DNA of 64,000 bases. Origin: an uncultured Pelagibacteraceae bacterium. GTDB taxonomy: Bacteria; Pseudomonadota; Alphaproteobacteria; Pelagibacterales; Pelagibacteraceae. The stretch covers positions 62,001 through 126,000 of the forward strand of contig CACHGA010000001.1 in assembly GCA_902579285.1 (NCBI GenBank), read 5' to 3'. The position numbers and the translations under genes were made by a program. Position 1 is the first letter of the stretch; each line of letters begins with the position of its first letter. The notes below the pieces were generated by a model. That model worked only from the letters and a program-made list of their open reading frames with translations. It was not told where the DNA came from and did no database searches. Below, piece by piece: positions 27,208-45,753 of the stretch.

Positions 27208-27636
27208 ATGAGCAAGATAGAAGAAAAGTGCAAAGAAAAAGGTGTAAGATTAACTGATCAGCGAAAAATTATCGCAAAGGTGATATCAGATTCAAAACAA
27301 ACTTTTGGATCAAAAGATCATCCAGATGTTGATGAGCTTCATAAAAGGGCAACGTTAATTGACAAAAAAATTAGTATAGCAACAGTGTATAGAACAATTA
27401 AGTTGTTTGAAGAGTCTGGTATCTTAATTAGACATGATTTTAAAGAAGGTAAGTCTAGATATGAGCCAACAACAGAAGAACATCACAACCACCTTATAGA
27501 TATTAACTCAGGGGAGATAGTAGAATTTGTTGATAAAGAAGTCGAAGAACTTCAAAACAAAATTGCACAAAAACTCGGATATAAACTTGTAGATCATAAG
27601 CTAGAACTTTACGGGTCAAAAATTAAAAAAAATTAA
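27208..27636 (+). CDS. fur: Fur-family transcriptional regulator
   Basis: Metal-responsive repressor of iron (or manganese) genes. The N-terminal winged helix is GVRLTDQRKIIAKV...KISIATVYRTIKLFEESGIL. The C-terminal metal/dimer region has EEHHNHLIDINSGEIVEFVDKEVEELQ, typical of Fur. It lacks the CxxC zinc site near the C-terminus, as in many alphaproteobacterial Fur/Mur proteins. 142 aa. The position between tsaB and miaB is the standard alphaproteobacterial location. A second Fur-family member (irr) lies at 42824. Confidence 0.93.
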   Translation: MSKIEEKCKEKGVRLTDQRKIIAKVISDSKQTFGSKDHPDVDELHKRATLIDKKISIATVYRTIKLFEESGILIRHDFKEGKSRYEPTTEEHHNHLIDINSGEIVEFVDKEVEELQNKIAQKLGYKLVDHKLELYGSKIKKN

Positions 27637-41036: not shown

Positions 41037-42248
41037 TTAAACCTTTTCGAAAATCAATGTCGCGTTTGTTCCACCAAAACCGAAGCTATTAGACATAACA
41101 GAATTTAATTTTACATCCTTTTCAACTTTCGTGACAATTGGGAACTTTTGTGCTGACTCATCCATTTCATTAACGTTACAAGATGCTGCAATAAAATTAT
41201 TTTTCATCATTATTAAAGAATAAATCGCCTCATGAACTGAAGCAGCTCCTAGTGGGTGACCAGATAGAGATTTTGTTGAACTAATTTTCGGTATTTTATC
41301 TTTGAATGCATCTTTTATAGCTTTTAATTCAGTTATATCTCCAACCGGAGTTGATGTACCATGGGTGTTAATATAATCAATTTTGTTTCTAGTTGTCTTT
41401 AATGCTAAGTTCATACATCTAGTCGCCCCTTCTCCTGAAGGTGCAACCATATCAAAACCATCGGAAGTTGCTCCATAGCCTGTCAATTCTGCATAAATTT
41501 TTGCTCCTCTTGCTTTAGCATGCTCAAGTTCCTCTAAAACCAAAACTCCCGCTCCTCCAGCAATCACGAAACCGTCTCTTGTCTTATCGTATGGCCTAGA
41601 AGCCTTCTGCGGATTATCATTATATTTTGAAGAAAGCGCAGTCATTGCATCGAACATAGCTGTCATAGCAAAATGAATTTCATCACTTCCACCTGCAAAA
41701 ATAATTTTTTGTTTTCCAAACTGAATAAGTTCCATTGCATTACCAATACAGTGACCGCTAGTAGCACAAGCCGAACTTATCGTGTAGTTAACCCCTTTTA
41801 TTTTAAAAGGAACTGCTAAAGTTGCTGAAGCAGTACTTGCCATAGTTCTTGGTACAATAAATGGTCCCATTTTTTTTGGATTTTTTTCTCTAGTTTTATC
41901 TGCAGCTAAAATAACATTCTCGATTGAAGGACCGCCTGAACCCATTACCATACCTGAGTCAACATTACTTATATCTTTATCTTCCAAACCAGAGTCGGTT
42001 ATTGCTTCTTTCATCGCCACATAGTTATATGCCGATCCGTTCCCCATAAATCTTAATGCTTTTCTGTCAACATGATCTTCAAGCTTTATATTCGGTTTTC
42101 CGTGCACATTACTTTTCAAATTGTGCTCTTTATATTCTTCCGCGAAAGAAATACCTGATTTACTATTTATGAGTGAATCATAAACTTCGTTTTGATTATT
42201 CCCAAGACAAGAAACAATTCCAATCCCTGTTACGACAACCCTCTTCAT
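41037..42248 (-). CDS. fabB: Beta-ketoacyl-ACP synthase I (FabB)
   Basis: Condensing enzyme, in the FabB branch that extends unsaturated intermediates. The active-site Cys is in ISSACATSGHCIGNA, and the catalytic His residues lie in INTHGTSTPVGD and LSGHPLGAASVHEA. N-terminal RVVVTGIGIVSCLG. 403 aa. Overlaps fabA by four bases, consistent with coupled synthesis of the FabA/FabB pair. Confidence 0.96.
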   Translation of the reverse strand: MKRVVVTGIGIVSCLGNNQNEVYDSLINSKSGISFAEEYKEHNLKSNVHGKPNIKLEDHVDRKALRFMGNGSAYNYVAMKEAITDSGLEDKDISNVDSGMVMGSGGPSIENVILAADKTREKNPKKMGPFIVPRTMASTASATLAVPFKIKGVNYTISSACATSGHCIGNAMELIQFGKQKIIFAGGSDEIHFAMTAMFDAMTALSSKYNDNPQKASRPYDKTRDGFVIAGGAGVLVLEELEHAKARGAKIYAELTGYGATSDGFDMVAPSGEGATRCMNLALKTTRNKIDYINTHGTSTPVGDITELKAIKDAFKDKIPKISSTKSLSGHPLGAASVHEAIYSLIMMKNNFIAASCNVNEMDESAQKFPIVTKVEKDVKLNSVMSNSFGFGGTNATLIFEKV

Positions 42249-42751
42249 TGTTTATAAACTCCTACTTTCAAATTTTCTGCGGTATATATCTGTTTACCAT
42301 CAGCTTTCAAAATCCCGTCTGCAAAACCAACAGTTCCACTTTCAGTTTTTAAAACTTTTTTCATATCTACTTCATAAGTCGCCATTTTTACTTTTTTTAT
42401 AACTTCACCAGTAAATCTAACAGAATTTACACCTAAAGCACGTCCTTTACCTGGTTCACCAATCCACCCAAGGTAGAAACCAACTAATTGCCACATCGCA
42501 TCTAACCCCAAACATCCAGGCATTACAGGATCAGCCTTAAAATGGCAATCAAAGAACCACATTTTATCTTTTATATCTAGCTCAGCTTTTACGGTACCCT
42601 TTTTAAATTTGCCTTCATCTGATTTTATTTGTGTAATTCTATCAAACATTAACATTGGTGGCGCTGGTAAACGTGCATTCCCTTCACCAAACAATTTACC
42701 GTTTGCGCATTCAATTAATTCATTATAGTTGTAGCTGCTTTTTTGTTTCAT
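42245..42751 (-). CDS. fabA: 3-hydroxydecanoyl-ACP dehydratase/isomerase (FabA)
   Basis: Dehydratase and isomerase introducing the double bond in unsaturated fatty acids. FabA-type active site with catalytic His in WFFDCHFKADPVMPGCLGLDAMWQL. N-terminal YNYNELIECANGKLFGEGNARLPAPPML is the FabA start region. I use ATG 42751 (MKQKSSYNYNEL, 168 aa) rather than the track's 42766, as it fits the family N-terminus. 72 bases separate it from divergent irr. Confidence 0.95.
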   Translation of the reverse strand: MKQKSSYNYNELIECANGKLFGEGNARLPAPPMLMFDRITQIKSDEGKFKKGTVKAELDIKDKMWFFDCHFKADPVMPGCLGLDAMWQLVGFYLGWIGEPGKGRALGVNSVRFTGEVIKKVKMATYEVDMKKVLKTESGTVGFADGILKADGKQIYTAENLKVGVYKQ

Positions 42752-42823
42752 TTTGAAAGGTAACAATTGCTTGAGTTTTTAGCAATATCATATATAAAAT
42801 TGAAAAAATTATACAGTAAGTTA
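42752..42823. promoter_or_regulatory. fabA/irr divergent promoter region with an inverted repeat
   Basis: 72 bases between the two chosen starts. They contain ATTGCT (42766-42771) and AGCAAT (42781-42786), a perfect 6-bp inverted repeat with a 9-base gap, and an AT-rich TATATAAAAT segment after it that may serve as a -10 region. The repeat does not match the Irr-box seen at katG. It is a candidate operator only. Confidence 0.3.
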
Positions 42824-43246
42824 ATGCAAAAAAATAATAATAAAAACAAGATTTTTATAGATAAACTCAGATCTTCAGGTCTTAGACCTACGAATCAAAG
42901 AGTAGAGATAACCAAATTTCTCTTTAATAGAAAAAAAACATTACATTTCACAGTTGAAGAATTAAAAAACTCTATGAATTTAAAAAGATCAAAAAAAATT
43001 TCAACAGCAACTTTTTATAATACAGTGCATGCACTAAAAAGTGCTGGGTATTTAAAGGAATTCTCCTTAGAAAATAACACATCATACTATGACACAAATA
43101 TTTCTTCTCATCATCACTTCTTTGATAATGGAAAGGTGATTGATATTAAGAGCGACAAAATTACCTTTCAAAAACTCCCAGAGGCGCCAAAAGGTAGGAA
43201 AATCAAAAACGTCGAAGTTGTAATAAGATTAGAAAATAATAATTAG
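42824..43246 (+). CDS. irr: Iron response regulator Irr (Fur family)
   Basis: Fur-family regulator which in Alphaproteobacteria senses haem/iron and controls haem and iron-using genes. The winged helix is LRSSGLRPTNQRVEITKFL...ISTATFYNTVHALKSAGYL. The histidine stretch SSHHHFFDNGKV matches the HHH haem-associated motif of Irr. I use ATG 42824 (MQKNNN..., 140 aa), 57 bases after the track start, because Fur proteins lack the extra N-terminal residues. Divergence from fabA is the classical Irr location. katG, with an Irr-like box, is the next gene. Confidence 0.88.
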   Translation: MQKNNNKNKIFIDKLRSSGLRPTNQRVEITKFLFNRKKTLHFTVEELKNSMNLKRSKKISTATFYNTVHALKSAGYLKEFSLENNTSYYDTNISSHHHFFDNGKVIDIKSDKITFQKLPEAPKGRKIKNVEVVIRLENNN

Positions 43247-43269: not shown

Positions 43270-43304
43270 TTGACACATACTTTAGAATAATTATAAAGTA
43301 GTTA
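43270..43304 (+). promoter_or_regulatory. katG promoter with an Irr-box (ICE)-like operator
   Basis: A good -35 TTGACA (43270-43275) and -10 TATAAA (43292-43297) are spaced by 16 bases. Overlapping the -10 is TTTAGAATAATTATAAA (43281-43297), which matches the published alphaproteobacterial Irr motif (TTTAGAA-NNN-TTCTAAA, from memory) at all but one fixed position. The same bases also resemble a PerR box. Binding here would block the -10 element, suggesting repression of katG by Irr or another Fur-family protein. Confidence 0.62.
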
Positions 43305-43307
43305 TAA

Positions 43308-45503
<2,196 letters not shown>

Positions 45504-45504
45504 T

Positions 45505-45753
45505 ATGACAGAGTTAACATCCGGAATATTTAACGCCTCAAAAAAAATCTATGACACAAACAAAGGATCAATATTAAGAACAATTGTTTATACAATTGGT
45601 CACTTTGTAATTGCAATTACAGTATTGATGTTGGTTGCAGACGTGTCTTTTTATATAGCATTAACTGATGCAATAGTTGAACCTTTGGCTAATTCAGTTT
45701 GGTATTTTTTACTAGATAAGTTTTGGGCCTCAAAGGTAATGAGGAAAAAGTAA
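45505..45753 (+). CDS. DUF2061 small membrane protein
   Basis: 82-residue protein with one or two TM segments (LRTIVYTIGHFVIAITVLMLVADVSFYIAL) and the DUF2061 ending EPLANSVWYFLLDKFWAS. Function unknown. One base after katG, so probably co-transcribed with it. The next gene is convergent, starting its stop one base beyond. Confidence 0.78.
   Translation: MTELTSGIFNASKKIYDTNKGSILRTIVYTIGHFVIAITVLMLVADVSFYIALTDAIVEPLANSVWYFLLDKFWASKVMRKK

Follow-up and report, generated by a model that had tools for sequence, protein, structure and literature searches.

The Irr box, or ICE, of Alphaproteobacteria is a palindrome with the consensus TTTAGAA-N3-TTCTAAA, and as a kind of element it is already known. 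The same palindrome stands at the promoters of mbfA and ccpA in R. sphaeroides, of blr7895 and bfr in B. japonicum, and at the site described here. In R. sphaeroides, Irr binds the boxes of the rubrerythrin-like gene mbfA and of the peroxidase gene ccpA, and outside SAR11 repression at low iron is the rule for Irr (PMC3413700). Here we examine a putative Irr-box-like operator between irr and katG in a genome of SAR11, a group that ranks among the most abundant ocean cells, has very few regulators and lacks genetics. The site lies within a 64-kb stretch of DNA that was analyzed as a whole (hereafter, the window).

A putative Irr box over the katG promoter

The gene irr (42824–43246, plus strand) encodes a 140-aa Fur-family regulator, the presumed operator binder (Pfam FUR, 72 bits; IrrA as the best NCBIfam match). 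A 79-base gap separates it from katG (43326–45503, plus strand), the putative regulated gene, which encodes a catalase-peroxidase (TIGR00198, 1017 bits). Before irr, and on the minus strand, lie fabI, fabB and fabA, in this order; fabA (42245–42766) is the divergent neighbor of irr, and the fabA-irr pair anchors the slot in SAR11 and in several other Alphaproteobacteria. A gene for a small DUF2061 membrane protein (45505–45753, plus strand) begins immediately past the end of katG, and the two may form one transcript governed by this operator.

Within the gap, TTTAGAATAATTATAAA (43281–43297, plus strand) differs from the Irr box consensus by a single mismatch and forms the core of an extended 11-1-11 palindrome, TACTTTAGAAT-A-ATTATAAAGTA (43278–43300), in which 10 of 11 pairs are intact. 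The one broken pair is the base that creates the −10 hexamer (TTCTAAA to TTATAAA), so that operator and −10 share one stretch. Specifically, the −10 hexamer TATAAA (43292–43297, plus strand) falls within the right arm of the palindrome, 16 bp from the −35 hexamer TTGACA (43270–43275, plus strand), and a promoter scan returned a promoter-like site with this same −35 hexamer. The initial annotation had described the site as one fixed position off the Irr motif, as covering the −10 of a TTGACA-N16-TATAAA promoter before katG, as having irr for its adjacent upstream gene, and as resembling a PerR box. The first three points were confirmed from the sequence at the positions given above, and the PerR likeness was borne out by a match at 14 of 15 bases to the PerR consensus.

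Conservation of the palindrome where katG follows irr

We evaluated first how far such a site could be a product of chance. The site at 43281–43297 is the only match to TTTAGAA-N3-TTCTAAA with one mismatch in the 64-kb window, and exact TTTAGAATNATTATAAA occurs once in the whole assembly, at the irr-katG gap. However, matches with ≤3 mismatches showed no excess over chance in the window (48 observed vs 40 expected), and those with ≤2 mismatches across the assembly were at background (33 vs 40 for the reversed pattern). Since mismatch counts stay this near to background, it is conservation rather than counting that settles the question.

To that end, katG loci were drawn from 297 genomes of the family, and further irr loci were added; the Irr protein queries started at 42827, one codon past the ATG at 42824, which left the results unaffected. 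A box with ≤1 mismatch was present in 103 of 108 distinct irr-katG gaps (250 bases before katG), while the best match of the reversed-pattern control in these gaps had 3 mismatches; locus L264, outside this count, also carries the box. In a few irr-linked promoters, e.g., L060, the site has decayed. At katG genes located away from irr, the box was absent in 16 of 16 cases tested, with best matches at 4–6 mismatches, i.e., at the control level. The check suggested in the initial annotation, namely whether the palindrome is kept as long as irr and katG stay linked, thus came out clearly in its favor. As judged from these comparisons, the palindrome is tracking linkage to irr and not katG as such, and, like an Irr box, it sits in an iron/peroxide gene promoter and depends on irr for its presence. 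Identity of irr across the compared set falls from 100% to 45% with the box retained, indicating that the box outlasts its surroundings.

Across 40 non-redundant irr-katG promoters, the 17 box bases carried 1.41 bits per position vs 0.26 in the flanks; these promoters had been preselected at ≤2 mismatches, while the 103/108 count is unselected. The left arm, which lies inside the promoter spacer, was conserved as well as the −10, conservation of the −35 was much lower than that of the box, and the flanking bases A at −2, T at +18 and A at +19 were likewise conserved. Four loci (L209, L066, L068 and L069, from genomes G220, G077, G001 and G049, three of which belong to the window's own genus) encode a distant KatG type away from irr. 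In these four genomes irr was not found at the E-value used and katG has no Irr box; fabA-fabB is present without irr in L209.

Exchange of katG and rubrerythrin behind irr

Among the 297 genomes, 49 encode irr without katG. In all 18 of the katG-less loci examined first (L190–L207), the next gene after irr is rbr, which encodes a rubrerythrin of 137–138 aa and whose box lies over the −10, abuts the −35, or occurs in both positions, in which case the two boxes are 31 bases apart; most of these loci have a further box upstream of irr. Overall, rbr was found in 47 of 297 genomes, all irr-positive and katG-negative, and katG in 205, so that the overlap between the two sets is zero. Downstream of rbr in these irr-rbr units (L382 1676–3007; L190–L207) lies a gene for a GlpC-like iron-sulfur oxidoreductase, which could be the electron donor to rubrerythrin.

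The same pairing extends beyond SAR11. We compared 30 Irr loci of further alphaproteobacterial families, of which 24 had a rubrerythrin gene (products 61–87% identical); in 23 of the 30 it stood directly after irr, within about 300 bp. In these 23 irr-rbr gaps, the best Irr-box match had on average 2.5 mismatches vs 6.1 in mononucleotide shuffles, and ≤2 mismatches were seen in 14 of 23 vs 0.01 expected; the boxes usually abut TTGAC, and one is a perfect TTTAGAATCATTCTAAA. The occurrence of the same box between irr and rbr in SAR11 and other Alphaproteobacteria alike links it to Irr rather than to katG, and since irr-box-rbr is the usual order in the latter, it represents the older arrangement.

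Parsimony on a tree of Irr counts 7 changes between katG and rbr, and at least 3 on strongly supported branches; the tree was built from a short alignment, and many of its forks are open. The irr-linked KatG proteins form two clades with other alphaproteobacterial KatGs between them, with strong support, which implies that katG replaced rbr there at least twice. To account for the retained operator, katG may have arrived behind a promoter already there, or the boxes may have evolved anew; the sequences favor the first route, given that loci with the distant katG type often retain the old −35-abutting box as well. A Fur-family regulator and katG are paired once more, as a separate case, at locus L306 of G326, which belongs to another alphaproteobacterial family. 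There a PerR-like gene with Cys-x-x-Cys motifs (1058–1498) overlaps the beginning of a katG that is close to the one of SAR11, and an Irr box is absent.

Position of the box was also reflected in its sequence. Free boxes, i.e., those upstream of the −35 and clear of the −10, have the right arm TTCTAA of a true palindrome, and their consensus in SAR11 and other Alphaproteobacteria is the full TTTAGAA-N3-TTCTAAA; the right arm TTATAA occurs only where the box overlies the −10. Most SAR11 outside the window's genus also have a box upstream of irr itself. Within that genus this box has decayed (42767–42824 in the window), and autoregulation may have been lost there as a result.

Elsewhere in the genomes, the motif was rare. 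We detected 44 matches to TTTAGAAYNATTATAAA in 42 genomes, of which 39 belong to the irr locus and 4 to other sites, with 1 unplaced, compared to 5 matches for the reversed control in the same genomes. A search for a wider Irr regulon in G000 and in the complete genome G026, which we take to be Ca. P. ubique HTCC1062, returned other matches at the control level only, and the two best non-locus matches fall within coding genes. At this stringency the predicted Irr regulon in SAR11 appears to be one locus, although weaker sites could escape. In G026, four copies of TTTAGAA-N3-TTCTAAT (C1:76167–76312), three at exactly 32-base spacing, look like a tandem repeat array rather than operators.

Metal ligands of Irr and absence of OxyR

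The best NCBIfam match of the window Irr, IrrA, scored 137.8 bits (E = 2e-40) against a cut-off of 150, and several small-genome Alphaproteobacteria score similarly below this cut-off. Residues H41, D90, H96, H98 and D107 match the PerR iron ligands H37, D85, H91, H93 and D104 (numbering with Met); the protein also has the histidine cluster HHH, and the five ligands are invariant in 143 of 143 SAR11 Irr proteins. With all PerR iron ligands retained, the initial suggestion that a Fur-family regulator "of either type" could act here was a fair hedge. None of the 143 proteins has a CxxC structural zinc motif, any Cys-Pro or the B. japonicum-type heme regulatory motif GCPWH, and the window Irr contains no cysteine at all. 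Many Irr proteins are without the heme regulatory motif. OxyR was absent in the genomes checked, i.e., this assembly (80% complete), the complete G026 and others; the sole LysR protein of this genome and of G026 is GcvA/YafC-like and has no cysteine, and is thus not OxyR. In B. japonicum Irr the same five ligands have been noted, and its own His63 is oxidized by peroxide at the matching site (PMC4700492).

A predicted peroxide switch and its alternatives

Taken together, these patterns point to the palindrome being the operator of the neighboring Irr, through which peroxide would relieve repression of katG or rbr at one locus, a reading to which we assign a probability of roughly 0.83. An Irr dimer on the palindrome would block RNA polymerase and shut katG off, and H2O2, acting via iron or heme at the Irr histidine cluster, would inactivate Irr and open katG; we infer this inactivation from the invariant ligands and from published chemistry of B. 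japonicum Irr and PerR. The gene after irr would be an exchangeable slot for a peroxide scavenger, filled by the ancestral rubrerythrin in some genomes and in others by katG, which was gained at least twice, with both occupants under the same type of operator and SAR11 Irr serving mainly this one locus. The irr-operator pair is very probably how SAR11 cells control peroxide defense. A broader account, in which SAR11 Irr, once a global iron regulator, was reduced to a one-locus peroxide switch replacing the missing OxyR, and unrelated scavengers (diiron rubrerythrin and two heme KatG lineages of separate acquisition) were exchanged with the operator type kept and the choice tracking habitat, seems to us about evenly balanced between right and wrong.

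The sign of the iron response can take two forms, both of which predict opening by peroxide and each of which we graded as a share within this main explanation. With a PerR-like sign, Fe- or Mn-loaded Irr would repress, and peroxide oxidation or metal loss would release it, with mild opening upon iron chelation. The five invariant PerR ligands (the Asp equivalent to PerR residue 104 among them), the single base separating the putative operator from a PerR box, and the lack of OxyR in the genomes checked are all consistent with this version, to which we give even odds. It is weakened by the absence of the structural zinc CxxC sites of PerR, and by B. japonicum Irr, which has the same ligands and still acts as a classical Irr (PMC4700492).

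With the classical sign, which we consider doubtful, iron or heme scarcity would stabilize Irr and thereby repress the heme enzyme KatG, while iron sufficiency would lead to Irr degradation and peroxide would be secondary. Both the Irr family and the Irr box match this version, KatG is a heme enzyme, and low-iron repression is found in all studied Irr proteins (PMC3413700); however, the heme regulatory motif of B. japonicum is missing from 143 of 143 SAR11 Irr proteins. Expression data from HTCC1062 bear on both signs, the irr-rbr unit of G026 at about 389 kb fitting locus SAR11_0399. Under iron limitation, the rbr transcript of HTCC1062 rose 1.57-fold and the Irr protein level was unchanged (Smith et al. 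2010, PMC2864753). This rise does not fit the classical sign and fits the PerR-like sign slightly better, although it is a single, small change.

Whichever the sign, repression by Irr has to be weighed against binding by another Fur-family protein, i.e., the Fur paralogue at ~27235–27612 or a third member on contig 2. Fur-family boxes do resemble one another and Fur is encoded in the same genome, but a Fur box is made very improbable by the tracking of irr rather than katG and by near-confinement to the irr locus; the box is missing from katG genes unlinked to irr, and in most clades irr has one upstream of itself. Also very improbable is that the site is just a well-conserved promoter, as the −10 within the right arm and the conservation of promoters among close relatives might suggest, a reading contradicted by a left arm in the spacer, unread by sigma-70, that is conserved like the −10, by boxes upstream of the −35 that contain no −10, and by a −35 far less conserved than the box.

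Comparison with known systems

Peroxide is made by sunlight in surface water, and the putative regulator-operator pair now offers a specific, conserved and testable candidate for its sensing in SAR11. The proposed operation of Irr at this locus would explain the mutual exclusion of katG and rubrerythrin and would provide a clear natural example of gene replacement with the operator retained. It would also tie regulation to the published prevalence of katG in offshore genera (PMC12636525), a report in which we found no mention of irr-box regulation of katG. In the literature searched, we found no description for SAR11 of a katG target, dual use of the −10, reduction to one locus, or the exchange of scavengers.

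The described Irr boxes have rubrerythrin-like proteins and peroxidases as targets and share their regulator family with the SAR11 site. In contrast to these, the right arm TTATAAA in the window doubles as a −10, the target is katG, the regulon apparently consists of one locus, and binding by Irr is a prediction. The irr-rubrerythrin loci of other Alphaproteobacteria come closer still, as they also present irr, then an Irr box with TTGAC, then a scavenger gene, with fabA divergent in several; however, the scavenger there is rubrerythrin and not katG, and the box precedes the −35 instead of covering the −10. The PerR-katA/katG systems of Bacillus and others likewise combine a Fur-family repressor, a five-ligand iron site, a regulator that is often adjacent, and a heme catalase promoter overlaid by an AT-rich inverted repeat, but the two CxxC motifs for structural zinc in PerR have no counterpart in SAR11 Irr. 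Finally, peroxide control of katG, presumed likewise in SAR11, is exerted in proteobacteria by OxyR, a LysR-type activator that is absent from this genome and from the HTCC1062-like G026.
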